Below are positions 36,410-51,507 of a DNA stretch of 58,615 nt, in pieces. Numbering within the stretch: position 1 is the stretch's first letter; the number at the start of each line of letters is the position of its first letter. The notes under the pieces are model-generated. The model did no database searches, had not been told where the DNA came from, and saw nothing but the letters and a program-made list of their open reading frames with translations. Origin of the DNA: a virus; IMG/VR virus record IMGVR_UViG_3300024255_000031, positions 1-58,615 of that record; one strand, written 5' to 3'. Position numbers and translations under genes: made by a program.

Positions 36410-37375
36410 ATGGCTAATTTAAACAGACTTTTAAACGACAGAGCCCAGGTATTTCGTCGAGGCGAGGAAGATACCAAAGGCGGTCAAACATATTATTATG
36501 CTTTTACTGATACTGCTACTGGTCGTTGTCAATTTTGTTGGAAGTCACCGGGTACTGGCTGTGCAGTAGTAGAAGTTTGGGGAAGTTCAGGCGGTGGCGG
36601 CAGAATGTGTTGCTGTTCCGGTCCAGGCGTTCCTGGTAATCCAGGTGCCTATAGTAGAAAGTATACCAGAGTCTGTAGCGGAACATATATATGCGGATGG
36701 GGCGGTTGTTCGCAACAGCCTACTAATTTGTGCTACGGCGGACGTGGCAATTGCTCAGTAGCATGTGTGTTTAACTCAGGTAATAACGGATGTGCAAGAT
36801 CAGAAGCAGGCTTTGGCGGATTTAGTCGTTGTACAACTAGTACATCACAATTCCGTTGTTTAAGAATCCAATGTAATTTTTGCTCAACTTGTATTGGTAC
36901 ATACTGTGGTATTGTTTGTAACTATCGAGGTCCAAACACTGCTGTGGCTGCAAATGCATCTAGTGGAGATTTAAATATTCCAGGTGGTATTTCTTGTACT
37001 AGATTCTGTACGTGTTACAACTGTAGATCGTGTGGTTATGAATACACCTTAGCTCTATCGCCAGGAGTACACGGACAAGAATGTTCACCGTGTGTAAGAA
37101 TGAAAACTGCCGGCGAGCCAATGAACTGGTGTAACTGTGCTACACATTCAGGACGTATGTCAGCACAATTGGGAGTTAAAGCATTTACTAAAACGTTACC
37201 TCAAATGTACCCATGCTGGAGTAGCGGCAACAGAGAATGTGCTTGTTACGAATTTGTATCGTGTTATTACAATGGTACTGGAGTTCCGGGACTAGGAGGT
37301 ATACCTTGTGCCGGCGTCAGAGCAAACCCAACACGTGGCGGTCATGGCGGCATCAAAGTAACATTTTATTCATGA
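36410..37375 (+). CDS. Cysteine- and glycine-rich fibre-tip-like protein A, 321 aa
   Basis: First of three tandem paralogues. I count 34 cysteines in 321 residues. The N-terminus MANLNRLLNDRAQVFRRGE looks helical. It is followed by the conserved block FTDTATGRCQFCWKSPGTGC, then E-V-W-G-S-x-G-x-G-G-R-x-C-C-C, then V-C-S-G-T-Y-I-C-G-W, then ACVFNSGNNGCAR, and the end P-C-A-G-V-R-x…R-G-G-H-G-G-I-K-V-T-F-Y-S. There is no signal peptide or membrane segment. The C-terminal [GC]-x-G-V-R…G-G-H-G-x-[IV]-K-[VI]-T-F-Y pattern resembles glycine-rich phage adhesin ends. Coming straight after a fibre gene, it is most likely a receptor-binding tip or virion surface protein. The cysteines could form disulfides after release or bind metal; the sequence cannot say which. 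Confidence 0.88.
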   Translation: MANLNRLLNDRAQVFRRGEEDTKGGQTYYYAFTDTATGRCQFCWKSPGTGCAVVEVWGSSGGGGRMCCCSGPGVPGNPGAYSRKYTRVCSGTYICGWGGCSQQPTNLCYGGRGNCSVACVFNSGNNGCARSEAGFGGFSRCTTSTSQFRCLRIQCNFCSTCIGTYCGIVCNYRGPNTAVAANASSGDLNIPGGISCTRFCTCYNCRSCGYEYTLALSPGVHGQECSPCVRMKTAGEPMNWCNCATHSGRMSAQLGVKAFTKTLPQMYPCWSSGNRECACYEFVSCYYNGTGVPGLGGIPCAGVRANPTRGGHGGIKVTFYS

Positions 37376-37390
37376 GGAAACAGGCATAAT

Positions 37391-38353
37391 ATGGCAAATT
37401 TACAGAAACTATTAAATGATAGAGCAAATGTCAACTTACGAAGTGTTGAAACTTTAGCAGCTGGTCCGGTATATTATTATACCTTTACAGATACACAAAT
37501 TGGCAGATGCCAATTTTGTTACAAAGCACCTGGTACAGGATGTGTTGCACTAGAAGTATGGGGGTCAGCAGGTTCGGGCGGACGTCAGTGTTGTTGCACT
37601 ATGGCAGGCTTGCCTGGAAATGCTCCGGGATATAGTAAAAAATTTATTAGAGTATGTAGTGGAACATATATATGCGGATGGGCAGGATGCTCGCATCATG
37701 GTTTAAACTTGTGTACTGGTTGTCGAGGTAACTGTACAGTGGCATGTGTGTTTAACTCGGGTAACAACGGATGCGCTAGAGGCGAAGGCGGATATGGCGG
37801 CTGGACTAGATGTATTACTAGTGGTACACCGTATTGTTGTTTAAGAGCTTGTAACTTTTGTGCAACTCAGGAAGGCAGTAGCGGTTGTGGTATTATTTGT
37901 AACTATAGAGGGCCGCAAGGTGCTGTACCTGCAAATGGTTCTAGTGGAGATGTAAATTATAATGGCTGCTTTTCATGTACTAGATATTGGTGCTGCTGTA
38001 GAGGCTATCAACTTTGTGGAGTTGAGCATCGTGTATCAATAGCCGCAGGCATACATTCGTCAGATGGTCCAAGTAGTTTACAATTCCAAAGAAACCAAGC
38101 ACCAACAAACAACGGCAGCGGCGGCTCAACAGGTCGTGCTGAAATGCAAATTGCTCACGCTGGATTTGGACAAACAATGCCTCAGATGGATTTTTGTTGG
38201 CAAGGTACAAGAGAGTGTGGCTGTTATGATGCTTTAGGATGTTATTTTGGAACTCCTGGCATTCCCGGAACAAGCGGTGTTGGCTGTGCTGGTGTTAGAT
38301 CACAAGGCATGCGTGGCGGACACGGTGCTGTTAAAGTAACATTCTATTCATAA
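37391..38353 (+). CDS. Cysteine- and glycine-rich fibre-tip-like protein B, 320 aa
   Basis: Second paralogue, 320 residues with 32 cysteines by count. It starts 15 bases after the previous stop behind AGGAAA. The conserved framework is intact (FTDTQIGRCQFCYKAPGTGC; RQCCC; VCSGTYICGW; ACVFNSGNNGCARGE; RGGHGAVKVTFYS). Differences cluster in the middle: GTPYCCLRAC, then TRYWCCCRGYQLC, then the loop around residues 225-250 (FQRNQAPTNNGSGGSTG). A conserved frame with variable inner segments is what one expects of alternative receptor-binding tips, but this is inference. It lies in one transcription unit with its two paralogues. Confidence 0.88.
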   Translation: MANLQKLLNDRANVNLRSVETLAAGPVYYYTFTDTQIGRCQFCYKAPGTGCVALEVWGSAGSGGRQCCCTMAGLPGNAPGYSKKFIRVCSGTYICGWAGCSHHGLNLCTGCRGNCTVACVFNSGNNGCARGEGGYGGWTRCITSGTPYCCLRACNFCATQEGSSGCGIICNYRGPQGAVPANGSSGDVNYNGCFSCTRYWCCCRGYQLCGVEHRVSIAAGIHSSDGPSSLQFQRNQAPTNNGSGGSTGRAEMQIAHAGFGQTMPQMDFCWQGTRECGCYDALGCYFGTPGIPGTSGVGCAGVRSQGMRGGHGAVKVTFYS

Positions 38354-38368
38354 GGAAATAAACGTAAT

Positions 38369-39328
38369 ATGGCAAATTTAAGTACACTTATTACTGATAG
38401 AAATCGACAAAGGCAAAGCGGAGCTGACAAAGGAAGTTCTGGCACAGTATTTTACTGGACACATACACAAACAGGTGGCGGAGCTTGTCAATTCTGTTGG
38501 AATTCTCCAGGTACTGGTTGTGCTGTATTAGAAGTGTGGGGGTCGTCAGGCGGCGGCGGCAGAATGTGTTGTTGTTCAAAAAGCGGCCTTCCAGGCAACT
38601 CAGGAGGATATAGTAAAAAATATATCCGTGTATGTAGTGGTAGTTATATATGCGGATGGGCAGGGTGCGCAACACAATCAACTAATCTTTGTTGTGGCGG
38701 CCGAGGAAATTGTTCAGTAGCATGTGTGTTTAACTCAGGTAATAATGGGTGTGCTAGAGCAGAAGCTGGGTATGCCGGAAACACTAATTGTACAACAAGT
38801 ACAGCGCAATTCCGTTGTTTAGCATGTAGATGCGGTTATTGTAGTACAGCATGCGGTACATACTGCGGTACTGTTTGTAATAGAGCCGGACAATTTAGTG
38901 CTGTTCCTGCACCAGCATCAAGCGGAGATATAAACCTCGAAGGAGGGATATCGTGCACCTTTTTTCACTGTTGCTGTAATCAAATTTGTAAATCAAACGA
39001 TACAGTAACACTAGCAATTTCCGCAGGAATTTTTGCTGAAGGTCTTACTTGTTTATCATACAATAGAAACTGGTACCCATCGGCCCAAAACCAAGCATCA
39101 AATGGCCGCGCAGAACTAGATATAGCACTATCAGGATTAGCAAAACAGTTTCACACCTCGAATTGGAGATGCTGGCAAAGTTGGAGCCCGTGCGGTTGCT
39201 ACGAAGCTTCGGGATGTCACTACGGTGCAGTAGGAGTACCGGGCACTAGCGGACAACCGTGCGCCGGCGTTAGATCAAATGGTCTACGTGGCGGACACGG
39301 CGGAATTAAGATAACATTTTATAATTAA
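38369..39328 (+). CDS. Cysteine- and glycine-rich fibre-tip-like protein C, 319 aa
   Basis: Third paralogue, 319 residues with 33 cysteines by count. It starts 15 bases after the previous stop behind AAGGAAA, the same spacing as the first junction, as expected of tandem duplication. The framework is conserved (GGGACQFCWNSPGTGC; RMCCC; VCSGSYICGW; ACVFNSGNNGCARAE; LRGGHGGIKITFYN). Its N-terminal 35 residues and the central CTFFHCCCNQIC and SYNRNWYPSAQNQ regions differ from A and B. Copies A and C are closer to each other in the block GSSGGGGRMCCC and in the TTST-[SA]-QFRCL segment. It is likely a virion adhesin; not an enzyme by any motif I can see. Confidence 0.88.
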   Translation: MANLSTLITDRNRQRQSGADKGSSGTVFYWTHTQTGGGACQFCWNSPGTGCAVLEVWGSSGGGGRMCCCSKSGLPGNSGGYSKKYIRVCSGSYICGWAGCATQSTNLCCGGRGNCSVACVFNSGNNGCARAEAGYAGNTNCTTSTAQFRCLACRCGYCSTACGTYCGTVCNRAGQFSAVPAPASSGDINLEGGISCTFFHCCCNQICKSNDTVTLAISAGIFAEGLTCLSYNRNWYPSAQNQASNGRAELDIALSGLAKQFHTSNWRCWQSWSPCGCYEASGCHYGAVGVPGTSGQPCAGVRSNGLRGGHGGIKITFYN

Positions 39329-39346: not shown

Positions 39347-40006
39347 ATGAAAAAGACAGTTACATTTTATATAAACGATGAACCATTATCGCCAACTGCA
39401 ACTGAACAGCGTCAAGCTACTATTAAGTACGATGGTCCTAGATATTTATATTTAGAATATTGTACAGATGAAGAATGTATAATGGCACCAGTGCATTGGT
39501 CAGACGAGCAGGAACCTGAAGTAGCAGAAGAACGTAGGACTATTGATGATTGTCGCGTAATTCTTGAATTAGATGCCCAAGACACTATATTTCCAATTGC
39601 CGTTATGCTTAATACAACGTATAAGATGACTATTGATAATTATACAGAAACACTTCCAGACGGCGAAGTATATACGTATGAGTATCCAGAAGATCCGGAT
39701 TTAGACTCTATTTACGATATTAAAAATATGCGATTTAATCCAGAAACAAAGGATTATGACGAATGGTTATATGATGTTAACGATGTAACCGATGAAGAGT
39801 TTCTTGAAAGCATCGACGGCGCATTACAGTCTGTTAATGACGACATAGACGAAGGCGAATTCACAGAAGAAGAAATGGTAGCTGTTAATGCTTATAAAGC
39901 TGAATTAAATCAGTTAAAGATAGACTATGTTACCGGCATATACGGTCCTGTACCACACTGGAAACTTGGATTTCCGTCATTAGATCTAGATTCAAAAATT
40001 TATTAA
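39347..40006 (+). CDS. Acidic uncharacterised protein after the fibre-tip genes, 219 aa
   Basis: A 219-residue, strongly acidic protein with AAGGA before the ATG. The N-terminal half looks beta (MKKTVTFYINDEPLSP, then YDGPRYLYLEYC). The second half is acidic and helical (DVTDEEFLESIDGALQSVNDD, then FTEEEMVAVNAYKAELNQL) and ends in PVPHWKLGFPSLDLDSKIY. Its place immediately after fibre and tip genes, its size and its acidity fit a fibre-assembly chaperone, which in T4-like phages usually follows the fibre gene. No specific family motif is recognised, so this remains a positional guess. It closes the fibre cluster; a late promoter follows. Confidence 0.82.
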   Translation: MKKTVTFYINDEPLSPTATEQRQATIKYDGPRYLYLEYCTDEECIMAPVHWSDEQEPEVAEERRTIDDCRVILELDAQDTIFPIAVMLNTTYKMTIDNYTETLPDGEVYTYEYPEDPDLDSIYDIKNMRFNPETKDYDEWLYDVNDVTDEEFLESIDGALQSVNDDIDEGEFTEEEMVAVNAYKAELNQLKIDYVTGIYGPVPHWKLGFPSLDLDSKIY

Positions 40007-40087: not shown

Positions 40088-41065
40088 ATGAGCACAACAC
40101 GATCAAAAGCATTCTTTATGAATGGCGGAGCAGGAAGAGTTATCTGTTCTATTCCTGCTTTAGAAAAATACGCAGAAGAATCTGGTGATAAAGATTTTAT
40201 TATTGTTTGTGAAGGCGGCACCGAATTCTACAAAGGACACCCCTTACTAGATTCTAAAGCATATGATTCTTGGCAAAAAAATATCTTTCAAGATAAGTTA
40301 AAAAACATGGACTTAATAAGTCCAGAACCATACCGTGTATGGGAGTACTTTAATCAAAAATGCAGCCTTGCCCAAGCATTTGATATTGAAATAAACAACG
40401 CATCAGTAAGAGAATTGCCTTTACCTAGCTTAATGCTCTCGAGAGAAGAGCAATTATCAGGAAAGAAAATTATTAATGAAGTTAAGACAGCACTTAAAAA
40501 AGATAAGACTGTTGTTTTTCAGCCTTTTGGCAGAGGTATCGGCGACCAAAACGGCATATTATCTGATCCGTCGGGACGAAGTGTAGAACACGATTCGGTT
40601 ATTAATTTAATTCAAAAACTTCAAAAAGACGATTGGGGTGTTATATTAATGAGCGAGTTAAAGATAGACACTAAACAAACAGAATTACAAGAAGATATAG
40701 CACAGCCTGAAGGAGCAACGTTGAGAGACTGGGCTGCAATAATTGCTGGAGCAGATTTATTTCTTGGATGCGATAGTGTAGGTCAGCATATATCGCATTC
40801 GCTAGGTGTTCCTACAGTTTCAATTTTAGGATCAACTTATCCTATTAACGTATCATATCCGGAAACTGACAGATTTAAAGTTATTGATTTAGGAGAAGGT
40901 GGAAGACAATATTCGCCAATTCGAATTGTACAAGACGAATCAGTTGACCGAGCAAATGAACGTCTTATGTACATGACTCCTGAAATTGAAGACTTTGTGA
41001 TCGAAGAAATTAAAAACTTGTATAAAACTACAAAGCCTTCTACAGCTAAACTATTACTCAAGTAG
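40088..41065 (+). CDS. GT9-type (heptosyltransferase-like) glycosyltransferase
   Basis: A 325-residue GT-B-fold protein. Residues 12-27 (NGGAGRVICSIPALEKY) match the N-terminal loop of family GT9, and residues 237-264 (ADLFLGCDSVGQHISHSLGVP, then TVSILGSTYP) match the GT9 nucleotide-sugar site (A-D-L-x-x-x-x-D-S-x-x-x-H-x-x-x-x-L-G-V-P-T). GT9 enzymes, such as the WaaC/WaaF heptosyltransferases and the TibC/AAH autotransporter heptosyltransferases, use ADP-heptose, and this window encodes HldE and HldD. The acceptor is unknown: host LPS core or the phage's own fibres. It heads a four-gene operon with 7 bases to the carbamoyltransferase. Its ribosome binding site (TAGGA) lies in the inverted repeat described separately. 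GT9 assignment is fairly sure; sugar and acceptor are inference. Confidence 0.85.
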   Translation: MSTTRSKAFFMNGGAGRVICSIPALEKYAEESGDKDFIIVCEGGTEFYKGHPLLDSKAYDSWQKNIFQDKLKNMDLISPEPYRVWEYFNQKCSLAQAFDIEINNASVRELPLPSLMLSREEQLSGKKIINEVKTALKKDKTVVFQPFGRGIGDQNGILSDPSGRSVEHDSVINLIQKLQKDDWGVILMSELKIDTKQTELQEDIAQPEGATLRDWAAIIAGADLFLGCDSVGQHISHSLGVPTVSILGSTYPINVSYPETDRFKVIDLGEGGRQYSPIRIVQDESVDRANERLMYMTPEIEDFVIEEIKNLYKTTKPSTAKLLLK

Positions 41066-41072
41066 GATTATT

Positions 41073-42887
41073 ATGAAAACTAAAAAAACAGGCTGGATCG
41101 CAGCAATTACACGAGGACATAACTCAGGAGTTTGTCTCCTTAAAGATGGTAAAATTGTATTTGCTATAGAAGAAGAGCGTATTAGCAGACACAAATATGA
41201 CGGTGGCCCGCTCGCTGCTATGATTAAAATTCTCGATTATACAGATAAAATAGATTATTTAATGATAGCACATACACAGGCTTTAGAAGGAACAGCTGGC
41301 CGCATAGACTTCACAGGTGACGATGTCTATACTGGCCTTGCTAGAAAATTAGGTTTAATTGATCGAAATGCTGATATTTACAATCATCCACAAGTTGTTG
41401 ATTTAAGTAGTGTTCATCACAAGTTACATGCAGCATGTGCGTTTTATCGTTCTGGATTTGATAGTGCAACTTCTGTAATTGTTGACGGAGCAGGCACATT
41501 TATTAGTTTAAATATTGGCGGGGTTGACGAAACTGTTTGGGAATTAGAGTCTATTTTTAACTGCGAATATCCTGCAGAGATCAATACAGTGTACAAACAT
41601 TTAGGAGGTCGAGGACCGTTTGTAAGTGCTAGAATTCCAGATCAAGATGCCGCAAGAGAGATGGAAGACGGTACTTACGAATTAGTACTCGACGATACTG
41701 CGGGTATTACAAAAGCGTACGAAGCTGTAACACAGTACTGCGGATGGCAGCCTATCGAAGCAGGTAAGACTATGGGTCTGTTTCCTTACGGTAAACCTAA
41801 TGATTCTATTCCTCCAATATATACTGACGGCAACGGTGGCTCCTGGACAACTAGTGACAGGAACATAATTGTCCCTACGTATCCTAATGGTGCACTAGTT
41901 AACGAAGGTAGATACGAATATTTAGATACCGACATGGATTCTACAGAATCGGATATTACTAAACATCAGAACAGACGAGACATGGCATATGCAGTACAAA
42001 CGCAAAGTCAAGAACAGGTTGCTAGACTAATAGAAAAAGCAGTCGAAACAACAGGAAATAAAAATGTAGTGTTATCAGGCGGATATGCACTTAACTGTGT
42101 AGCAAACTATTTTTACCTCGAAAGGCTTAAAGACCTCGGTATTAACTTATATGTTGAACCGATTAGTTCTGATGCAGGAACATCGATCGGCGCAGCATTA
42201 TTAGGATATTATTCACTAGAAGGCGTAACGGAAAGAGTGTATCAGGACGACACATTATATTTAGGTCCTAAAACAACATACACTGACATTCAAATTAACG
42301 AAGCAGTAGAAAAGTATGAAGGCGAAATACAAGATAACGTAACTAATGCAGATGTTATTAACTTAATAACAAATAAGAATATTGTAACAGTATTTCAAGG
42401 TAGCTCAGAAGCAGGACCTCGTGCATTAGGTAACAGAAGTATCATGTATGACCCTACAGACCCTAATGGTAAAGACTTTGTTAACCAAGTAAAGCGTAGA
42501 GAATACTTTCGTCCGTTTGCAGGGTCAATTCTTGCAGAACACGCACACGAATGGTTTGACATGCGCGGATTAGAAGAATCACCTCATATGATGTATGCTA
42601 TGAATTGTCAAGAAGGCGTAGCAGAAAAGATTCCAAGTATTATTCACGTAGACGGTACGTGTCGAATTCAAACTGTTACTAGAGAGCAGAATCCGCACTA
42701 TTATGATCTAATTAACGAGTTTTATAAGAAAACTGGCGTTCCGATTATCTTTAATACAAGTTTTAATTTAGGTGGCGAACCTCTTGTAGAAACACTTGAC
42801 GATGCTGTTAGAACGTTGTATAGTAGTGATATAGAATTCTTGTACTTGCCGGAGCATGGAAAACTAATAACAGTTAAAAATTTGTAA
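41073..42887 (+). CDS. O-carbamoyltransferase, NodU/CmcH/TobZ family
   Basis: A 604-residue protein of normal length for the family, which transfers a carbamoyl group from carbamoyl phosphate, via carbamoyl-adenylate, to a sugar hydroxyl. The N-terminal ASKHA-like half begins GWIAAITRGHNSGVCLLKDG with I-E-E-E-R (typical of NodU) and has the HHKLHAACAFY metal-binding motif at about 115-125, followed by V-D-G-A-G. A second Y-x-L-N-C-V-A-N block lies near 340. The C-terminal YrdC-like half has GSSEAGPRALGNRSIM (about 443), YFRPFAGSI and PIIFNTSFNLGGEPL (about 557), all conserved. It lies 7 bases after the GT9 gene and 4 bases before the next, so the pair probably act on one glycan. Confidence 0.92.
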   Translation: MKTKKTGWIAAITRGHNSGVCLLKDGKIVFAIEEERISRHKYDGGPLAAMIKILDYTDKIDYLMIAHTQALEGTAGRIDFTGDDVYTGLARKLGLIDRNADIYNHPQVVDLSSVHHKLHAACAFYRSGFDSATSVIVDGAGTFISLNIGGVDETVWELESIFNCEYPAEINTVYKHLGGRGPFVSARIPDQDAAREMEDGTYELVLDDTAGITKAYEAVTQYCGWQPIEAGKTMGLFPYGKPNDSIPPIYTDGNGGSWTTSDRNIIVPTYPNGALVNEGRYEYLDTDMDSTESDITKHQNRRDMAYAVQTQSQEQVARLIEKAVETTGNKNVVLSGGYALNCVANYFYLERLKDLGINLYVEPISSDAGTSIGAALLGYYSLEGVTERVYQDDTLYLGPKTTYTDIQINEAVEKYEGEIQDNVTNADVINLITNKNIVTVFQGSSEAGPRALGNRSIMYDPTDPNGKDFVNQVKRREYFRPFAGSILAEHAHEWFDMRGLEESPHMMYAMNCQEGVAEKIPSIIHVDGTCRIQTVTREQNPHYYDLINEFYKKTGVPIIFNTSFNLGGEPLVETLDDAVRTLYSSDIEFLYLPEHGKLITVKNL

Positions 42888-42891
42888 ATCA

Positions 42892-43401
42892 ATGCATAAT
42901 AAAAGTTCGTTAGACAATTTAGAAACTTGGATAGAAAACTGGATACATCGTTTAAACAGCCGATATATTGATCCTAACGGACAAAAGTGTCCATATGCTA
43001 AGTCTGTATTAGACAACAATCGTTTAAAAATTGTTAAGATGCTAAATGCAGCACCAATCGACTTTTGGTCAAAAATAACTGTTGAGGCAGATAATCTTAA
43101 CGATGATATTGACGTTATTGTTGTTGCTACAGAAGCAAATAAAGAATTGTACGGGCATTATTTTGTTACTAACGGAGGAGTTGATGCTTTAAATTGTGCA
43201 TTTAATGTGCAAAATAAAGATGTTTGGTTATTGTCAGCAACTAATGATTTATACACAGTTGTTTTTATTCAGAGAATAACTGACATAGACGATGCAAGTA
43301 AATCTTTAGAACAAGATACTAATTATTATAACAAAATGACTTCAGAATACTTTGATAGATTTATTTTACAAAGACGAATATTAAGAGAACGTTTGAACTA
43401 G
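42892..43401 (+). CDS. Uncharacterised protein of the sugar operon, 169 aa
   Basis: A 169-residue protein starting 4 bases after the carbamoyltransferase stop without a strong ribosome binding site, so it is likely coupled to that gene. The N-terminal part (LETWIENWIHRLNSRYIDP, then KCPYAKSVLDNNRLKIVKML) vaguely recalls DUF1415-type proteins, which start with a W-x-x-x-x-I segment and a C-P-[FY]-A-K motif. The rest (VIVVATEANKELYGHY, then FVTNGGVDALNCAFNVQNK) does not confirm this. There are single Cys residues at the C-P-Y-A-K site and in LNCAF. No function is proposed; location ties it to sugar transfer or carbamoylation. Confidence 0.8.
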   Translation: MHNKSSLDNLETWIENWIHRLNSRYIDPNGQKCPYAKSVLDNNRLKIVKMLNAAPIDFWSKITVEADNLNDDIDVIVVATEANKELYGHYFVTNGGVDALNCAFNVQNKDVWLLSATNDLYTVVFIQRITDIDDASKSLEQDTNYYNKMTSEYFDRFILQRRILRERLN

Positions 43402-43413
43402 AAGGAATAGGTA

Positions 43414-43983
43414 ATGATATATCAAACAACAATTGGCTTAGACAGAGACGGAACTATCAATAAAGACATTGGTACATATGTAACTAGTCCTAAAGATTTT
43501 ATACCTATTCCAGGAAGTTTAGAAGCAGTTGCTATGATCCGTGACAAAGGATACAATGTTGTAATTCTTACTAATCAAGCAGGGATTATGAAAAATATTA
43601 TGACGGCTGAACAAGTTGACGAAGTAAACGATCATATGATGGAATTACTAGGTGAAGTTGGTTGTCGATCTATTAACGGGTTATACTATAGCACTACTAA
43701 TCTTAAAGAAGATATATACGCTAAACCTAATGTAGGAATGTTTAAAAAAGCTGAAAAAGAATTAGGCTTGAGATTTAAGAATGGATATTATGTAGGAGAT
43801 AAAATCTCAGATCTAAAATGTGCAATTAAAACTAAATCAACACCGGTTCTTGTTAAATCAGGTTACGGAAACGAAACGTTAACTAAATTAAATACTTTTG
43901 CAAATCGTCCTCTCAAGAAAAAGACCCAAGTGTTTAATAACCTTTGGGCCTTTGCTGAATCATTACCTACTGCGTCAAAATAA
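43414..43983 (+). CDS. gmhB: GmhB-like HAD phosphatase (heptose bisphosphate phosphatase type), zinc loop missing
   Basis: A 189-residue HAD-IIIA phosphatase, the size of GmhB (about 190). GmhB removes the C7 phosphate of D,D-heptose 1,7-bisphosphate between the two HldE reactions. Visible motifs: GLDRDGTIN (D10 nucleophile, D12 acid/base), VVILTNQAGI (motif II), Y-A-K-P-N-V-G-M-F (the lysine segment) and VGDKISDLKCAI (motif IV acidic residues). The odd point is the loop before A-K-P. In GmhB and related HisB phosphatases it holds a C-x-H…C-x-C zinc site; here (YYSTTNLKEDIYAKP) it has no Cys or His. The ATG follows GAAGGAA. The neighbouring hldE and hldD make the heptose role likely; another sugar phosphate is possible. 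Confidence 0.82.
   Translation: MIYQTTIGLDRDGTINKDIGTYVTSPKDFIPIPGSLEAVAMIRDKGYNVVILTNQAGIMKNIMTAEQVDEVNDHMMELLGEVGCRSINGLYYSTTNLKEDIYAKPNVGMFKKAEKELGLRFKNGYYVGDKISDLKCAIKTKSTPVLVKSGYGNETLTKLNTFANRPLKKKTQVFNNLWAFAESLPTASK
43920..43953 (-). terminator. Rho-independent terminator for the minus-strand sugar operon, inside the gmhB 3' end
   Basis: Read on the minus strand, AAAGGCCCAA and TTGGGTCTTT (43953-43944 and 43929-43920) pair over 10 positions with one G-U, with a 14-base loop. A T-rich tail continues (TCTTTTTCTT). It sits 33-66 bases past the cupin stop, inside the opposing gmhB reading frame. Confidence 0.65.
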
Positions 43984-43994
43984 TACTATTTTGA
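43975..43994. terminator. Short dyad at the convergent stop codons
   Basis: TCAAAATA and TATTTTGA are perfect 8-base arms around ATAC, covering both stop codons of the convergent gmhB and cupin genes. It is AT-rich and weak, so it may help end transcription or may only reflect composition. Confidence 0.35.
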
Positions 43995-44381
43995 TTGTTG
44001 CTTATCGGCAATTTGACTATCACCTGGACCGATGCGATAATTATCTTCTACACTATCAGGTGTACTAACTTCTGTAACACTACCTTCTTTAGACAAGCAA
44101 ACTAATTGATGAGGTTGCAACGGCGGATTGCGCCATACATCGCCTTCTTTAAGATCCTTTTCAAACATCATACTATTTGATGTATCAATATAACGAACTT
44201 TAAATTTACCTGCATTTACAAACCAAGTCTCATCTTTTTCTTTGTGAAAGTGCATACTTGTAGTTGCGCCTTCTCTAGTAAATGCCATAATTTTACCACA
44301 GTACTTGTCATTTGTTGCCCAAATCATTTCGTACCCCCATCCTTTTTGATCGACGCCTGTTTTCCTAGTTGGTTGATTCAT
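43986..44381 (-). CDS. Cupin-fold protein (sugar-phosphate isomerase/epimerase-like)
   Basis: A 131-residue single-domain cupin. The metal-binding set is visible: H44, H46 and E51 in TSMHFHKEKDETWFV, and H91 in PPLQPHQLV. The start (VDQKGWGYEMIWATN) resembles the G-W-G-x-E segment of type II phosphomannose isomerase cupin domains. It starts inside the end of hldD (17-base overlap) and ends 2 bases from the convergent gmhB stop. By context it may act on the heptose, for example as an isomerase or epimerase in place of a missing step. It lacks the SIS fold of GmhA, so it is not an obvious GmhA. The reaction is unknown. Confidence 0.82.
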   Translation of the reverse strand: MNQPTRKTGVDQKGWGYEMIWATNDKYCGKIMAFTREGATTSMHFHKEKDETWFVNAGKFKVRYIDTSNSMMFEKDLKEGDVWRNPPLQPHQLVCLSKEGSVTEVSTPDSVEDNYRIGPGDSQIADKQQSK

Positions 44382-45183
44382 TTACGTGTTCCTTTACTGA
44401 TGTAAAATTTATATTTGTAACAGTACTTAATTTATTTGTATCTGCACAAGTGTATTCTTGATACTGGCTTTTTAATTGTTCTGGCATTGGAATTTCTACA
44501 ATTTTAGCATTATGTTTTTCAGCAATTGTTTCTGCTACTTCTTTAAAACTAGTTGCTACACCAGACCCTACATTATATAATCCAGGTGTTTTATTTTCAA
44601 ATAATTGCTGATGCACTTCGCATACATCGCCTACAAATACAAAATCTCGCAAGTATTTGTCGCTATTTTCAAACAATTTAATTCTACCAGATTTAGTTGC
44701 TTGTTCGGTAAATTTAGTAATAGGACTTGCTTGATTGCCTTTATGTTCTTCTAAAGGTCCGTAAACGTTAAAGTAACGTAGGCCCTGCACAACAATGTTA
44801 TGTCGAGATAATCCCCAGACCCATCGATCAAACAAGTATTTGCTCCATGCATACGGACTTTGCGGTTGCTTAGGTGAATCCTCATTAAACTCTGTATTTG
44901 TTCCGTATACACTTGCGCTTGACGCATATTGTAGATTAACACCTTTAGAATTACATTCATTAAACAGCCATTTACTAAATTCATAGTTTTGTAACATAAC
45001 TTTATCTACGTCTGTTTCAGTAGTGCTACTAATAGCACCTGTATGAATAACCCAATCAAACCCTTCTACTTCTGGTAAACTATCTTCCTGCCATTCGTAG
45101 CCGAACAAATCGTGTTCGTTTTGCAAATACAATGTTAGATTTTGTCCAATAAACCCTTTATGTCCTGTAATTAATATTTTCAT
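44365..45183 (-). CDS. hldD: ADP-L-glycero-D-manno-heptose 6-epimerase (HldD/RfaD-like)
   Basis: A 272-residue short-chain NAD(P)-dependent epimerase, a little shorter than E. coli HldD (310). The Rossmann motif is GHKGFIG (G7, G10, G13). The GAISSTTETD segment at 49-58 matches the G-A-[CI]-S-S-T-T-E signature that separates HldD from other sugar epimerases. The catalytic Y111-x-x-x-K115 is in SPYAWSKYLFD, after YASSASVYG. Further matches are GLRYFNVYGPLEEHKG and RDFVFVGDV. It converts ADP-D,D-heptose to ADP-L,D-heptose, the donor for GT9 heptosyltransferases. Its ATG overlaps the hldE stop by 4 bases (ATGA), so the two are translationally coupled. Confidence 0.9.
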   Translation of the reverse strand: MKILITGHKGFIGQNLTLYLQNEHDLFGYEWQEDSLPEVEGFDWVIHTGAISSTTETDVDKVMLQNYEFSKWLFNECNSKGVNLQYASSASVYGTNTEFNEDSPKQPQSPYAWSKYLFDRWVWGLSRHNIVVQGLRYFNVYGPLEEHKGNQASPITKFTEQATKSGRIKLFENSDKYLRDFVFVGDVCEVHQQLFENKTPGLYNVGSGVATSFKEVAETIAEKHNAKIVEIPMPEQLKSQYQEYTCADTNKLSTVTNINFTSVKEHVNESTN

Positions 45184-46319
45184 TTACTTGCCTCTATAAT
45201 CTGTGTTGTTGAATACCCTTTAACTGTCGGTACTAAATGTACATCTGCTAAATCGTGTCCAACAACCGTTTCTACTGTATAGTCACCGCCTTTTACAATT
45301 AGATGCGGCCTTAATTCTTTAATTAATTCGTACGGTGTATCTTCGTCAAATACAACTACTTCGTCTACCCACGGTAATATTTCTAATTGACTAATGCGTT
45401 TCATTTGATCGTTAATAGGGCGTGTTTCGCCTTTGAGACGTTTAACGCTTGCATCTGAATTGACACCTACAATTAGTTTTTTACCGAGTGTTTTTGCTTC
45501 TGCTAAGAGCTCAAAATGACCCTTGTGTAGTATATCAAACACTCCGTTAGTAAACACTACACGATCTTCTAAGTCGCTTATAGCAAGCTTATATGTGCCT
45601 ACATGTGTAACAGCTTCCGTAGAACCCTTAATAGCAAGTTCGATACAATGTTTATAATTATAACCTTTTGTAAGTCCATATACAAATGCTGCTAAAAAAC
45701 AGTCTCCAGCGCCTGTAACATCGTTTACTTCTACAGCGTCAACTGGTATATCATATACTACATTTTCTATATTAGCAACTACATTAGCGCCAGCATTAGT
45801 TGTAATGATATTATCTTGCCAGTTAGTAAATCCAAAGTCTCCAAACTCTTTGTGGTTGGGTTTTACAAGCCAAGCACCTTTGTAGTGATTTGCATGTTCT
45901 TTAGGATCTACAATTACTTTACACCCAAACATGTTTAGATGTTTGATAATTTCAACACTTTCGTCCAGTGTGCCTTTATTATAGTCACTTAGAATAACAT
46001 AATCATACTCGTCAAAATCTTGTGATAAAATATATGTAAGAAACGCATTACCATCTGCAATATAATCATCATCAATGCGTGTAACATAATGCCCGTCACA
46101 TATTACTCTAGTCTTTACACTAGCTTTATCAAAGAAGTCAATAAGTTTAACATCTACATCTAAACTTTTAAGATTTTCGTATACAAGTCCGGCACCGCCG
46201 AGTGTTTCAACTTCACGTTTGTATGTAATTACCGGAACAGGAGCCTCAGGACTTATCCGAGTGCTCGTACCGTAAATATATTTGTCGATTATTATGTCGC
46301 CGAGAACTAATACTTTCAT
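45180..46319 (-). CDS. hldE: Bifunctional heptose kinase / heptose 1-phosphate adenylyltransferase (HldE/RfaE-like)
   Basis: A 379-residue two-domain enzyme, compact beside E. coli HldE (477). Residues 1-245 are a PfkB/ribokinase domain: GDIIIDKYIYG, then RISPEAPVPV and TLGGAGLVYEN (typical HldE substrate loops), KPNHKEF, and the anion hole with catalytic Asp in DVTGAGDCF (G203-D206). Residues 254-379 are a nucleotidyltransferase: FTNGVFDILHKGHFELL with H265-x-x-H268, then VGVNSDASVKRLKG and IVKGGDY. It phosphorylates D,D-heptose 7-phosphate at C1 and later adds AMP. The kinase domain is shortened mainly between the substrate loop and the KPN segment. A sigma70-like promoter lies just upstream. 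The identification is strong. Confidence 0.93.
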   Translation of the reverse strand: MKVLVLGDIIIDKYIYGTSTRISPEAPVPVITYKREVETLGGAGLVYENLKSLDVDVKLIDFFDKASVKTRVICDGHYVTRIDDDYIADGNAFLTYILSQDFDEYDYVILSDYNKGTLDESVEIIKHLNMFGCKVIVDPKEHANHYKGAWLVKPNHKEFGDFGFTNWQDNIITTNAGANVVANIENVVYDIPVDAVEVNDVTGAGDCFLAAFVYGLTKGYNYKHCIELAIKGSTEAVTHVGTYKLAISDLEDRVVFTNGVFDILHKGHFELLAEAKTLGKKLIVGVNSDASVKRLKGETRPINDQMKRISQLEILPWVDEVVVFDEDTPYELIKELRPHLIVKGGDYTVETVVGHDLADVHLVPTVKGYSTTQIIEASK

Positions 46320-46325
46320 CTTTAT

Positions 46326-46354
46326 ATGATACTACATTAATTGTAATTAGTCAA
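46326..46354 (-). promoter_or_regulatory. Possible sigma70-type promoter before hldE
   Basis: On the minus strand, TTGACT (46354-46349), a 17-base spacer and TATCAT (46331-46326) lie just before the hldE ATG (46319). The -35 overlaps the NUDIX stop codon. The resulting leader would be only a few bases, and no clear ribosome binding site is visible, so this is tentative. Confidence 0.4.
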
Positions 46355-46778
46355 GTAAATTAATCACCTCAATAACTGTTTTAAGTTTGGTAATATTACT
46401 TTTTCTATTGAGGGTGTTTTGTAAGCCTTGATGTAAGGGCTTAGGCCATTTACCGAAAGATACCCAGGCAAAACCGTTATGTTCGTCGTTGAGCTGAGGA
46501 GTGAAAGTTTCATCTACAACGCATAGATAAGTATGGAATTGAAATTTACTATCATTACTGATAAATGTTTCAAGTGGAATAGTTTTCTTTATATCAATGT
46601 GTCCAACTTCTTCGTTAATTTCTCTGCGTAATCCTTCCCAAGGAGTTTCGCAGTCTTCATTAGTGCCACCTACTAATCCCCAAACGTTATTACGTTTGCC
46701 ATTAGCACGATGTAGAAATAAAAACATTTTAGATTTTAGCGAGTAAACTAACGCACCGCTACAGATAATATCTTTCAT
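46347..46778 (-). CDS. NUDIX hydrolase
   Basis: A 143-residue NUDIX protein. The Nudix box is complete at about residues 38-60: G-T-N-E-D-C-E, seven residues, then R-E-I-N-E-E-V-G. Preceding NVWGLVGG and the N-terminal strand SGALVYSLKSKMFLFLHR are typical of the fold. It cleaves a nucleoside diphosphate linked to another group; the substrate cannot be read from the motif. Lying between gp15 and hldE on one strand, it could act on ADP-sugars or nucleotides made by the module, or be a housekeeping phage NUDIX. It starts 13 bases after the gp15 stop with a poor ribosome binding site. Confidence 0.88.
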   Translation of the reverse strand: MKDIICSGALVYSLKSKMFLFLHRANGKRNNVWGLVGGTNEDCETPWEGLRREINEEVGHIDIKKTIPLETFISNDSKFQFHTYLCVVDETFTPQLNDEHNGFAWVSFGKWPKPLHQGLQNTLNRKSNITKLKTVIEVINLLD

Positions 46779-46791
46779 ACTAATAATTATC

Positions 46792-48225
46792 TTAGTATGC
46801 TATACGCCATGTTCCATTTGGATATTCTCCTTCATAAGAAAGTATCCAGTAATCGCCTGTCCATTTATATTGAGTTTGTGTGTTTATATTAGTAACAAAC
46901 ATCTCATTAGGTTGGTTACTTGCGTCAAATACAATATGCCAGTTTAATCCGTCCCATTCAATAATATCATTTTCGCTAGCAATAAAATTGCTGTTATCGG
47001 AATTTTTCCAGGCTTCTGCGCCCTCAGTGTTATCTGCATCACCGATATTACCTAATAATAATAGTCGAGTGTTGCTTGAAGAATCTTGTGTAGTTCTTGG
47101 ATCGAATCTTGTAGGATCTATAATAAAATCTACATATGTTGCATCACCACTTGGGCCTGTAATTACGCTATCAGCTGGCAATGTTTCTGGGTCTGGAGAA
47201 TTTAGTATTAATCTCGTTTCGTCTGTTGTATCTATACTATCAATAACAAATACAATTTCTAAATCATTTGCTCGTTGCAATCGTAATTGTGTAATGCCCG
47301 GTTCAAATAATTCAGGCTGCGCAATAAACCAACCAGTCCATTTGTCTTTACCAACGACACCATTTTTAACTAATCTAGCTATACCGTCAACGACTTCTAG
47401 ATCATAATCTTGATAACTAGTAACAATTAATGCACTTTCATTAGTAAGTGATGCATCTGGTTGACTATTAACTTTCTCAGTTTCGTTGTTGACTTTAATT
47501 TTTTGTTGTACTAAACTCTGTGCATATGCATCTTCGTCAATATTAACTTCTAATCCATTGTCGGCAAACATTGCTGTGATAATCTTTGTAATTACACCTA
47601 GTTTTTTAACTTTAGCAGGAGGACTAATAAAGATTGGAGTATTTAGAGTTAATGACGCAACATCAATTTCACTTTCAGTGCCAGTAGGTATACTTCTACT
47701 ACTAAAATTAATATTTTCGATATTTACTACACTTAGACTTGTCCAATCGATATAGTTGTCTGTAGTTTGTATTTCTAAACTAGGATTAAACAACATAAAA
47801 ATTTGTTCAAGTATTTGTAGCTTTTGATCTGTATTAGTTGTCCAAATATCTATGTTAACAGTTAGTTTATACGGTGTAGGCATTATACGTTCTACAGTAT
47901 AATTTTTGCCTGCCTTATTTAAATACTCGTTACCGTCTGCATCGTATGCACGCTCTCTTATATTCATTTTATTAACATAACTTGAATCTGATAAACGGGC
48001 AGTATCCATTTCTAAACCAGTAATATAAATAGCCATTCTCGGAGCACTTGGTATTTTATTTTCCGAGTTGTCTCTTAAAATACTACCAACTTGTCTAGTT
48101 AAATCACCGTAAGTTACCGGAACTTGTACGAGACTTCCTTTACCGTCTTTGTAACTAAATTGTCCAAACAGTCTTACTATTTGTGTAAGATACCTGCGTA
48201 TTTGTCCGTCATAAAAATGTTGCAT
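46792..48225 (-). CDS. 15: Tail sheath stabiliser / tail completion protein gp15
   Basis: A 477-residue protein homologous in its first 210 residues to T4 gp15 (272 residues), which forms a ring at the top of the tail and joins it to the neck. The start MQHFYDGQIRRYLTQIVRLF corresponds to the F-Y-x-x-x-x-R-R-Y start of T4 gp15; VQVPVTYGDLTRQV and PTPYKLTVNIDIWTTNTDQKLQILEQIFMLF match its conserved core. The C-terminal extension (about 260-477) contains W-x-G-x-N-W-H-I-V-F-D and QYKWTGDYWILSYEGEYP, an extra module I recall from marine T4-like phages. Its ATG overlaps the gp14 stop (TAATG). It is unusual that gp14 and gp15 run opposite to gp13. Confidence 0.88.
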   Translation of the reverse strand: MQHFYDGQIRRYLTQIVRLFGQFSYKDGKGSLVQVPVTYGDLTRQVGSILRDNSENKIPSAPRMAIYITGLEMDTARLSDSSYVNKMNIRERAYDADGNEYLNKAGKNYTVERIMPTPYKLTVNIDIWTTNTDQKLQILEQIFMLFNPSLEIQTTDNYIDWTSLSVVNIENINFSSRSIPTGTESEIDVASLTLNTPIFISPPAKVKKLGVITKIITAMFADNGLEVNIDEDAYAQSLVQQKIKVNNETEKVNSQPDASLTNESALIVTSYQDYDLEVVDGIARLVKNGVVGKDKWTGWFIAQPELFEPGITQLRLQRANDLEIVFVIDSIDTTDETRLILNSPDPETLPADSVITGPSGDATYVDFIIDPTRFDPRTTQDSSSNTRLLLLGNIGDADNTEGAEAWKNSDNSNFIASENDIIEWDGLNWHIVFDASNQPNEMFVTNINTQTQYKWTGDYWILSYEGEYPNGTWRIAY

Positions 48226-49352
48226 TAGTTGTCCGCCTTGGGTCTAAGTGCTTTTGATAATGCCTGTTTTTCTGCAACTTGTTCGTCGCCAATAATATTA
48301 GTATTAGTATTATTAATAAAGTTTCCACGCTGTGTGTTTGTATCATCGTCACCGTAAACGAATGCACGTTTTACATCATAAACTTTATTCCATTTATTAT
48401 TTTTAAATTGAAATAGCCTGTTCGGTAAAAAATCTGTTCTTAAGAAATAATCATTAGTTTCTGGAGCACCTGGAAATTGTACACCAAAACCAAATGTGTC
48501 ACCGTTAGGCGTAAATGAATCGCCTATAATATAACCTTGATATCCAACCCGATCGGGAGGAGCCATTGCTGATAAACCGTCAGTGTCTTTGCTTGCTGTT
48601 AATTCTACGATTCCGTCTTCGTCAGTAGTTAACGAAAAGTAATGAGATACATCATACCCACTTTTCTGTACTTCTGTAGTAGCTTCTGAAATTACAGCAT
48701 TATTAAGCTGCATCTCTCTTTCGTAAGTAGATAAAATATCTCTTAGAGTGTCTCCGCCCGGATCTTCTTCGCTTGCAGGCAAGTCTAAAATTTCTTTGTA
48801 TTCTTGACCGTCGTATATTTGTTTTAGTTTTAAACGATATAAATGTGGATACCATGTGTGACTAAATCCTTCAGCAGCACGATTAATATCTTCAACAACA
48901 TAAAATCTTTTTAAAGCAACTGATGCATCATTCTCTGCATATTCGTCAATAAGATGAGGCAACTCAAATACATCGCCAGGCATTATTTTCCTGCCAATGG
49001 TCTTTACGCTACTACGAATGTGTATGGTCATAAACAATGTATCATTACTTAAGAACAATCCAAATTGACTTAAATCAAAATCTTGATCTTGTACATTATA
49101 AATGCCCCTCATTCTGTAAATATCAGGGTCGTATGTTCTGTCTCTATTTTCAAGAAACATTACATCTTGTATTTGAGTATGATCTTTTACTGTTGTGCCG
49201 TCGTCTGTGCCTATGTATTTGTATACATGTAGGTCAGTACCGCCAATAGTAAACATTTCTAGAATTTGTTTGTCTAGAAATTCGTAATCATTACCGCGTT
49301 CTGGTTTGTATAAGCTTAGGCGTGGAATAGCTATTCTCCTATTGTTATACAT
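48225..49352 (-). CDS. 14: Neck protein gp14
   Basis: A homologue of T4 gp14 (256 residues), one of the two neck ring proteins joining head and tail. Conserved parts are IPRLSLYKPERGNDYEFLDKQI, TDLHVYKYIG, then QDVMFLENRDRTYDPDIYRMRG and HTWYPHLYRLKLK. A C-terminal extension includes RLFQFKNNKWNKVYDV. The start is in doubt. The only ATG (49352) lies inside the minus-strand late promoter, so a transcript starting about 6 bases after the motif would not contain it. Within that transcript, AGGAG (49340-49336) is 7 bases before an ATT codon (49328-49326) in frame. I give the ATG as the formal start. gp15 follows with a one-base overlap. Confidence 0.85.
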   Translation of the reverse strand: MYNNRRIAIPRLSLYKPERGNDYEFLDKQILEMFTIGGTDLHVYKYIGTDDGTTVKDHTQIQDVMFLENRDRTYDPDIYRMRGIYNVQDQDFDLSQFGLFLSNDTLFMTIHIRSSVKTIGRKIMPGDVFELPHLIDEYAENDASVALKRFYVVEDINRAAEGFSHTWYPHLYRLKLKQIYDGQEYKEILDLPASEEDPGGDTLRDILSTYEREMQLNNAVISEATTEVQKSGYDVSHYFSLTTDEDGIVELTASKDTDGLSAMAPPDRVGYQGYIIGDSFTPNGDTFGFGVQFPGAPETNDYFLRTDFLPNRLFQFKNNKWNKVYDVKRAFVYGDDDTNTQRGNFINNTNTNIIGDEQVAEKQALSKALRPKADN

Positions 49353-49359
49353 ATTTATC
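49352..49359 (-). promoter_or_regulatory. T4-type late promoter for gp14-gp15 (minus strand)
   Basis: GATAAATA on the minus strand; its last A is the A of the only gp14 ATG. It is the mirror image of the plus-strand promoter for gp13: TATTTATCG (49352-49360), TTCA, CGATAAATA (49365-49373). Confidence 0.7.
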
Positions 49360-49365
49360 GTTCAC

Positions 49366-49373
49366 GATAAATA
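49366..49373 (+). promoter_or_regulatory. T4-type late promoter for gp13
   Basis: CGATAAATACTATT lies 16 bases before the gp13 ATG, with GGAG at 49379-49382. It forms one half of a divergent promoter pair. Confidence 0.8.
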
Positions 49374-49389
49374 CTATTGGAGAACTTCT

Positions 49390-50142
49390 ATGGCAATTAC
49401 ACAAAAACAAGAAATATTTGATTACGTTACTGCATTTTTAGGCGGAGGCATGGTGGATGTTGAATTAGATCCAATACATTACGAAACAGCCCTTGCAAAA
49501 GCTCTTTCAAAATTTAGACAACGTTCAGATAACTCGGTTGAAGAGTCGTATGTGTTTTTAGAAACAAGTGAAGATCAAAATGAATATACTCTTCCAAAAG
49601 AGGTTATAGAAGTTCGTAAAATATTCCGTAGAAGCATTGGGTCGCGCACAGGCGGCGGCGATGGCGGAACGATGTTCGAACCGTTTAATATGGCATACAC
49701 AAATACATACTTGTTATCGGGTAGTAATATGGGCGGACTTGCAACGTATGATATGTTTAGTCAATATCAAGAACTAGTAGGCAGAATGTTTGGTTCATTT
49801 ATTGAATTTAAATGGAATAGTGCTACTAAAAAAATAACACTACTACAGCGTCCAAGAACAAACGAAAATCTTTTGCTAATGTGTTACAATTATAGACCCG
49901 ACGAACAACTACTTGTTGACTATCAAGCACAGCAGTGGATTAAAGATTATACCCTTGCAAGTTGCAAATATATGCTAGGCGAAGCACGTAGTAAGTTTGC
50001 TACAATTGCTGGACCACAAGGCGGATCTACTCTCAACGGTAACGATCTTAAAAACGAAGCAATGCAAGAAATGGAAAAACTTGAACAAGATGTTATTCAA
50101 CAAGTTGCAGGCGGAGTAGGTTACGGATTTACTATTGGCTAA
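49390..50142 (+). CDS. 13: Neck protein gp13
   Basis: A 250-residue homologue of T4 gp13 (309 residues), the neck protein that with gp14 closes the filled head and accepts the tail. The start MAITQKQEIFDYVTAFLGGG is chosen over an upstream in-frame codon because GGAG and the late promoter lie directly before it. Conserved stretches include ETALAKALSKFRQRS, YTLPKEVIEVRKIFRR, MFGSFIEFKWNSATKKI and YRPDEQLLVDYQAQQWIKDY followed by T-L-A-x-C-K-x-M-L-G-x-A-R. It runs divergently from gp14, whereas in T4 both lie in one rightward cluster. A stable hairpin follows its stop. Confidence 0.92.
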   Translation: MAITQKQEIFDYVTAFLGGGMVDVELDPIHYETALAKALSKFRQRSDNSVEESYVFLETSEDQNEYTLPKEVIEVRKIFRRSIGSRTGGGDGGTMFEPFNMAYTNTYLLSGSNMGGLATYDMFSQYQELVGRMFGSFIEFKWNSATKKITLLQRPRTNENLLLMCYNYRPDEQLLVDYQAQQWIKDYTLASCKYMLGEARSKFATIAGPQGGSTLNGNDLKNEAMQEMEKLEQDVIQQVAGGVGYGFTIG

Positions 50143-50554: not shown

Positions 50555-51079
50555 ATGAAACTAAAACTACTAGTCATTGGACACGGCAGACACGGTAAAG
50601 ATACGGTGTGTGAAATTCTCCGTGATAAGTATGGTTATAGTTTTGAAAGCAGCAGCAAGTTCTGTAGTAAATTGTTTATCTATAATGATCTAAAAGACAA
50701 GTACAGATACATCGACGAAGAACAGTGCTATGCTGATAGACATAACCATCGTCAAGAATGGTATGAAGCTATTTGTGATTACAATGTACCTGATGCTGGC
50801 ACACTTGGTAGAGAAATATTCAAAGCACATGATATCTACTGCGGCTTACGTAACAAGCGTGAATTTAATGCAATGAAGAATACTGGAGTTTTTGATAAAG
50901 CTATTTGGGTAGATCGTAGTGATCATCTTCCTCCTGAAAGCAAAAACTCTATGAGCTTAGAGCAATGGATGGCAGATTATACTATTGACAACAACGGAAC
51001 ACTCGAAGAATTGGAATTTAACTTAGCTCAACTTATTGAACACATTGATCCTTACAGTGCATCAGAAGTCGGGGATTAA
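50555..51079 (+). CDS. Deoxynucleoside monophosphate kinase-like P-loop protein
   Basis: A 174-residue P-loop kinase. The Walker A motif is GHGRHGKDT (G9-T17), of the G-x-x-x-x-G-K-D-T form found in T4 gp1 dNMP kinase (241 residues) and related proteins. YADRHNHRQEWYEAICDYN and TLGREIFKAHDIYCGLRNKREF fit the substrate-binding and lid regions of such kinases; VFDKAIWVDRSD is the usual strand before the C-terminal helix. It would phosphorylate dNMPs for phage DNA synthesis. It has its own consensus sigma70 promoter, apart from the late genes around it. Its stop overlaps the end of the convergent HNH gene by 18 bases. The exact substrate is unproven. Confidence 0.82.
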   Translation: MKLKLLVIGHGRHGKDTVCEILRDKYGYSFESSSKFCSKLFIYNDLKDKYRYIDEEQCYADRHNHRQEWYEAICDYNVPDAGTLGREIFKAHDIYCGLRNKREFNAMKNTGVFDKAIWVDRSDHLPPESKNSMSLEQWMADYTIDNNGTLEELEFNLAQLIEHIDPYSASEVGD

Positions 51080-51397: not shown

Positions 51398-51464
51398 ACT
51401 GTATTTACCTCACCTTTCCGGCCCCTTTTTCAGAGGTATTACTGCTATGATTTTTAGAGTAGAT

Positions 51465-51472
51465 GCTAAATA
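51465..51472 (+). promoter_or_regulatory. Likely late promoter for gp18 (GCTAAATA)
   Basis: GCTAAATAC lies 35 bases before the gp18 ATG. It departs from GATAAATAC at one base but is in the expected place and no better match is near. Confidence 0.55.
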
Positions 51473-51507
51473 CAAGTAATACAAATACATCCAACAGGGA
51501 GATAAAC

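Follow-up and report, generated by a model that had tools for sequence, protein, structure and literature searches.

Tail-fibre tips as candidate substrates of a putative heptose and carbamoyl tailoring gene set in T4-type phages

Mycobacteriophages encode glycosyltransferases, of other families and with other sugars than those considered here, that act on virion proteins; to our knowledge that glycosylation involves neither a dedicated heptose supply nor carbamoylation. Bacterial precedents are provided by TibC and AAH, heptosyltransferases of glycosyltransferase family 9 (GT9) that act on autotransporter adhesins, and by the lipopolysaccharide (LPS) core of Pseudomonas, in which heptosyltransferases are accompanied by the carbamoyltransferase WapO, with carbamoyl-heptose at Hep II (PMC8005017). 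The present analysis concerns a GT9-like glycosyltransferase, a NodU/TobZ-type O-carbamoyltransferase (CT) and putative ADP-heptose synthesis genes of the viral record IMGVR_UViG_3300024255_000031, which belongs to a marine phage, the whole 58.6-kb of which was analysed (the window) and whose structural genes are of T4 type. The window resembles TibC/AAH in the GT9 fold, in the ADP-heptose genes nearby and in an adhesin-like proposed acceptor; it differs in sequence (12% identity), in an arginine at the position of the canonical aspartate, in that the proposed acceptor is a phage fibre, and in lacking the extra N-terminal domain of TibC/AAH, the Rossmann strand beginning at residue 7. With Pseudomonas it shares the combination of heptose and a CT that would act on heptose, the target there being LPS and not a virion protein. 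The best-supported reading of the locus, to which we give somewhat better than an even chance, is late, virion-directed tailoring of the tail-fibre tips.

The gene set is not unique. A preliminary description of the window had considered a dedicated virion heptosylation system to be new, whereas these genes have been present in cultured cyanophages since P-SSM2 and have been called LPS or secondary-metabolite genes. In P-SSM2, S-CAM1 and S-SSM7 the block T4-GC 302-308 likewise lies between fibre and neck genes and shares with the window a GT9-like gene (unnamed there), CT, HldE, a HAD protein, a cupin and HldD; there, HldE is split in two and a HAD protein of 107-114 aa stands in place of GmhB. 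T4-GC 304, 305, 307 and 308 were treated as LPS genes of unknown use by Sullivan 2010 (PMC3037559). The halogenase, oxygenase and carbamoyltransferase cluster of S-SSM6a, whose sister phage S-SSM7 has the same GT9-CT core and heptose genes, is read in the available part of Iyer 2021 (PMC7824862) as metabolite or capsule decoration, and a link to Cys-rich fibre tips is unmentioned in that part. A partial literature search found no work linking the gene set to fibre tips.

Profile and structure searches recovered the hldE, hldD, gmhB-like, GT9-type and NodU-type genes where the preliminary description had placed them, in two convergent operons (Table 1). The plus-strand run consists of GT9, CT, a gene for a 169-aa protein and the GmhB-like gene, with 4-12 bases between genes; the minus-strand run that meets it reads gp14, gp15, NUDIX, HldE, HldD and cupin, with overlaps of HldE with HldD and of HldD with the cupin gene. 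The cupin, 169-aa and NUDIX genes had been overlooked. As had also been described, the block lies between fibre and neck/tail genes: to its 5' side are very large fibre genes followed by three tandem genes for Cys-rich proteins (CYS, 36410-39328), and to its 3' side are gp15, gp14, gp13, sheath and tube. HldE, HldD and cupin share one run with gp14 and gp15, which couples the heptose genes with the late structural ones. The T4 late-promoter octamer TATAAATA, with 5 matches against 9.2 expected, gives no support here.

The preliminary description had suggested surveying related phages for co-occurrence with the fibre cluster, and GT9-CT does recur beside CYS and the tail-assembly-chaperone-like protein P2, reciprocally. 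A GT9-alignment search of IMG/VR confirmed 497 relatives, and 80 loci were retrieved. The GT9-anchored comparison of 87 loci contains GT9 in 84, CT in 82, P2 in 75 and CYS in 70, usually in the order CYS-CYS-CYS-P2-GT9-CT, and the neighbours stay together when inverted. When loci were anchored on CYS, GT9 was found in 68 of 79, and among the 11 loci that lacked it 6 are contigs that end just after CYS; when anchored on CT, it was found in 71 of 80, most misses being cut at or just before CT (the three anchored sets overlap in some contigs). Among 156 non-redundant GT9 loci, 126 extend at least 5.5 kb downstream and contain CT (126, a count biased upward, many loci being CT-anchored), P2 (116), CYS (108), 2-oxoglutarate-Fe(II) (2OG) oxygenases (53, about three each), SGNH-like proteins (44, so labelled from sequence appearance, Pfam having given the representative no match), tryptophan halogenase (27), GmhB-like proteins (27) and HldE (24), the heptose genes often lying beyond the flank. 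GT9-CT is the core of the gene set, and ADP-heptose genes are found in only part of the loci.

The GT9-like protein matches PF01075 at 3.6e-6 (26.9 bits; cut-off 22). Because the GT9 profile gave nothing real against PDB sequences, a fold search was used: the top Foldseek matches of the AlphaFold2 model (predicted local distance difference test, pLDDT, 87.8) are all GT9 enzymes, and the best in PDB are 3tov (GT9), WaaF, WaaC and TibC, which include all three proteins proposed earlier for comparison. The clade is phage-specific. A cellular origin was considered and rejected, a genome scan having given 8 matches, mostly phage-like contigs binned in metagenome-assembled genomes (MAGs). Two such contigs, L087 (335-kb) and L091 (153-kb), carry a full CYS-P2-GT9-SGNH-CT block and are binned in a Neomarinimicrobiota MAG, inside which fused HldE matches are also found.

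The three CYS proteins of the window are about 320 aa each, with 10-10.6% cysteine and much glycine, and are predicted to be tail-fibre tip proteins. The CYS-3 model, built from a 69-sequence alignment, matches a fibre of cyanophage Pam3 (7ypx, 4e-7) and the Bxb1 tail tip (1e-5); in the viral library BFVD its top two matches are S-CAM3 and P-SSM2 proteins, and Syn9 gp38 is matched also. The glycine-rich domain PF21722 is matched by 4 of 13 diverse CYS members. P2 appears to be tail-assembly-chaperone-like, 20 of 54 family members matching PF16778 (Phage_tail_APC). The window CYS matched nothing by tblastn in the annotated phage collection, and for that reason cyanophage CYS and P2 were used as queries instead; these match only S-CAM1 and S-CAM3 there. 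The P2 alignment was too divergent for scanning the whole collection. Of the fibre targets named in the preliminary description, the best-linked candidates are the Cys-rich, Gly-rich tips rather than the long beta-helical fibres.

In Vibrio phage D505 a distant GT9-like gene with the NGGxGRV/GCDSxGxH signature (its first motif reading DGGLGRV) stands directly 5' of a tail-tip gene (PF09327), and a second such gene is part of a tail operon in Aeromonas phage HJ05, in both cases without CT or HldE. The reciprocal CYS linkage, the fibre-like CYS fold and these genes in unrelated tail operons make a fibre a likelier target than host LPS. Remodelling of the host surface, by which (carbamoyl-)heptose would be placed on LPS or capsule during infection and might, for example, exclude other phages, agrees with the filing of the four T4-GC genes under LPS by Sullivan 2010 (PMC3037559) and with the O-chain modification proposed for host-recognition-region glycosyltransferases of pelagimyophage (Zaragoza-Solas 2020, PMC7029224), but is considered unlikely: in nearly all loci GT9-CT is linked to tips and a tail chaperone, the neighbours being fibre, chaperone, neck and tailoring genes and not other LPS transferases or export genes, and expression in late structural runs would leave little time for a change of surface. 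Cyanobacterial LPS, moreover, contains neither heptose nor Kdo (3-deoxy-D-manno-octulosonic acid) (PMC4390846), so that there is no heptose core to extend and heptose has no known host-LPS use in cyanobacterial hosts.

The window CT exceeds the cut-offs of both PF16861 (9.5e-60) and PF02543 (1e-24), and its PDB relatives are TobZ and GdmN. By analogy with Pseudomonas Hep II, the carbamoyl group is more likely to be placed on the heptose. The earlier proposal that the phage heptosylates and carbamoylates its fibres is therefore retained as regards the fibre and modified as regards a separate carbamoyl group, and a combined +235 Da becomes relevant beside +192 and +43 Da. Cyanophage carbamoyltransferase has been discussed as pyrimidine synthesis in two papers (PMC9146016, PMC10436341), a role that would not fit if the genes concerned belong to the NodU/TobZ family.

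Heptose is likely to be the sugar. HldE is a 379-aa fusion of kinase and adenylyltransferase with 34% identity to E. coli HldE (NF008454, 4e-83), which retains the key motifs of both halves, has a short kinase half and scores below the NCBI equivalog cut-offs throughout. HldD is about 40% identical to E. coli HldD and matches TIGR02197 with 250 bits (cut-off 274.6); Y140, K144 and K178 are retained, Y140 and K178 being invariant. The GmhB-like HAD protein matches NF006506 below the model cut-off and a D,D-heptose bisphosphate phosphatase of PDB at 4e-18; because the protein lacks the Cys/His loop present in E. coli GmhB, its substrate was judged mostly from context. HldE is found in all 23 annotated GT9-positive cyanophage-type records, and the HldE query matches only 49 of 50,697 records overall; of the 12 large contigs compared, which span 110-365 kb, 10 contain HldE adenylyltransferase together with HldD, as do about half of 50 shorter or mixed IMG/VR records, all these counts including related contigs and strains and not being independent events. 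The hosts of phages D505 and HJ05 are expected to make ADP-heptose themselves, and the absence of HldE from these phages versus its presence in cyanophages agrees with phages supplying the pathway when their hosts lack it.

Several findings weigh against heptosylation of the tips. The ADP-L,D-heptose synthesis previously described is represented by HldE, HldD and the GmhB-like protein, but the pathway is incomplete on the phage, its first enzyme, GmhA (TIGR00441), being found in 0 of 68 GT9/HldE-type records, five complete cyanophage genomes among them. The phage could make ADP-heptose only if the GmhA step were supplied from elsewhere. That the cupin replaces GmhA is hypothesis only: its family profile matches the D-lyxose isomerase 2y0o at 2e-6, and oxalate decarboxylases match better. 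P-TIM68 and S-T4 have HldE, the cupin and the short HAD within LPS-like clusters of glycosyltransferases that lack GT9-CT, a setting that would suit modification of the host surface. Serine or threonine content of CYS does not correlate with HldE presence, and five CYS loci (L139, L140, L152, L165 and L175) have a single CYS in different surroundings, with no GT9, CT or P2. In GT9-CT contigs of 165, 223, 160 and 139 kb neither HldE nor HldD was seen, which for fragments is no proof of absence. Finally, the catalytic aspartate that follows the first strand of WaaC (D13) is replaced by an invariant arginine, Arg17, in 58 of 58 aligned phage proteins, and by arginine also in those of D505 and HJ05, so that a mechanism of the WaaC/TibC type cannot be assumed; the further invariant acidic residues E42, D99, D160 and E190 are candidates for an alternative base.

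The missing aspartate and the contigs that show no HldE or HldD are what would be expected if a different nucleotide sugar were used to tailor the fibres, with the heptose genes serving elsewhere. We give this only a slim chance in view of the strong HldE/HldD co-occurrence and of the donor-site residues of WaaC (D261, H266), which seem to be retained as the invariant D229 and H234 of GCDSxGQH in an hhalign alignment of only 35% probability.

One side observation concerns annotation: cyanophage proteins called "phosphoheptose isomerase" (L003:16113-16457 and L002:16086-16409) are the HAD proteins of 107-114 aa, and the GmhA profile is unmatched in those genomes; the label looks wrong.

In relatives, 2OG oxygenases, a tryptophan halogenase or a radical S-adenosylmethionine (SAM) protein occupy the same slot. 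One island (L237:4711-13824), bounded by CYS-P2-GT9 and a gp9/10-like baseplate gene, holds four 2OG oxygenases, of which two match weakly, a DUF6445 protein, a tryptophan halogenase and a GmhB-like HAD. The tryptophan content of CYS, compared on prior expectation, is 3.58% in halogenase-bearing loci versus 2.47% in others (p 1e-8, uncorrected for relatedness). When the GT9 tree is taken into account the effect has p 0.009, uncorrected for 20 residues, among which tryptophan ranks first; the control proteins P2 and CT show no effect and GT9 a weak opposite one. That CYS tryptophan tracks the halogenase is suggestive of CYS as substrate. The recurrence of halogenase, 2OG oxygenases and carbamoyltransferases, which resemble antibiotic-tailoring enzymes, could also mean that the island makes a small molecule derived from a sugar or amino acid, or decorates capsule, as read for S-SSM6a by Iyer 2021. 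This seems distinctly unlikely, since no nonribosomal peptide synthetase, polyketide synthase or exporter was recognised in the scanned loci, the window holds the sugar and carbamoyl part only, the constant neighbours are structural, and the behaviour of CYS tryptophan fits a protein substrate.

Phage carbamoyltransferases and glycosyltransferases reportedly act on TET-made hydroxymethylcytosine (Burke 2021), and sugar and carbamoyl groups might by that precedent be added to modified bases of phage DNA. With TET/JBP in 1 of 21 GT9-positive records and linkage to tail genes and not to DNA metabolism, this is barely credible here. A TET/JBP-like domain lies in one 161-kb GT9-positive contig (G026:C1:140082-140519).

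For virion-directed tailoring of the tips we envisage the following course. HldE, the GmhB-like HAD and HldD would make ADP-heptose, the first step being provided by host GmhA or perhaps by the cupin. The phage-specific GT9, if active with this donor, would move the sugar onto a fibre protein of the virion, with the tandem CYS tips as the likeliest acceptor in view of gene order and fold; chaperone-like P2 would be coupled to assembly, and CT would then carbamoylate the transferred sugar, with altered binding or stability of the fibre as the presumed purpose. A wider version is tentative and, in our estimate, possible rather than probable: that marine phages tailor fibre tips before assembly much like a peptide natural product, with GT9 placing (carbamoyl-)heptose on CYS and many relatives adding 2OG hydroxylation, SGNH-like or radical-SAM modification and tryptophan halogenation.

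The sheath of the window phage is closest to those of Sinorhizobium, Agrobacterium and Pseudomonas jumbo phages rather than cyanophages, and by this protein the phage appears to be a T4-superfamily lineage different from P-SSM2, S-CAM1 and S-SSM7. The host marker psbA is present in five cyanophages and absent from 20 IMG/VR records, which makes other hosts probable for the non-cyanophage lineage. The sheath (51463-54849) is unusually long at 1128 aa, its nearest relatives belonging to jumbo phages of Rhizobiales and Pseudomonas. The genes at the gp14 and gp15 positions run in the direction opposite to that of gp13, sheath and tube (46792-50142), and are co-directional with them in S-CAM1 and S-SSM7. 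There are also two giant fibre-like open reading frames with internal repeated segments, 13995-21845 (2616 aa) and 21881-33934 (4017 aa), and, amid the tail genes, a gene like deoxynucleoside monophosphate kinase (50555-51079).

Table 1. Genes of the tailoring block and adjoining structural genes in the window
Feature	Coordinates	Strand	Matches and remarks
CYS-1, first of tandem triad, candidate acceptor	36410..37375	+	10.6% Cys, Gly-rich predicted tail-fibre tip protein
CYS-2, second of triad	37391..38353	+	
CYS-3, third of triad	38369..39328	+	copy modelled, pLDDT 78.9
P2, tail-assembly-chaperone-like, 219 aa, immediately 5' of GT9	39347..40006	+	window copy matches phrog_9740 only
GT9-like glycosyltransferase, phage-specific clade	40088..41065	+	PF01075; motifs NGGxGRV, GCDSxGxH
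NodU/TobZ-type O-carbamoyltransferase (CT)	41073..42887	+	PF16861, PF02543
169-aa protein	42892..43401	+	phrog_28122, closest relatives only
GmhB-like HAD phosphatase (D,D-heptose-1,7-bisphosphate 7-phosphatase family)	43414..43983	+	NF006506 2e-37
Cupin, candidate sugar isomerase	43986..44381	-	phrog_7851
HldD, putative ADP-glyceromanno-heptose 6-epimerase	44365..45183	-	TIGR02197 3e-74; PDB 1eq2 4e-47
HldE, putative fused heptose-7-phosphate kinase/heptose-1-phosphate adenylyltransferase	45180..46319	-	short kinase domain
NUDIX hydrolase, same run as HldE and gp15	46347..46778	-	PF00293 3e-15; synteny
Tail sheath stabiliser, gp15-like, same run	46792..48225	-	phrog_227 4e-23
Virion structural protein at gp14 position, first gene of minus-strand run	48225..49352	-	phrog_11591 5e-81

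What is new here is that GT9-CT, as a core tied to Cys-rich fibre tips across hundreds of viral contigs, suggests self-decoration of host-binding fibres. If this is true, a function would be provided for cyanophage genes that have been listed for more than a decade under LPS or metabolites (carbamoyltransferase, rfaE-like, tryptophan halogenase and some 2OG oxygenases). The hosts of S-CAM1, S-CAM3, P-SSM2 and S-SSM7 have no LPS heptose of their own, so heptose on those virions would be diagnostic. Abundant marine phages would then build chemically modified adhesins, which would bear on their host range and on co-evolution with their hosts.

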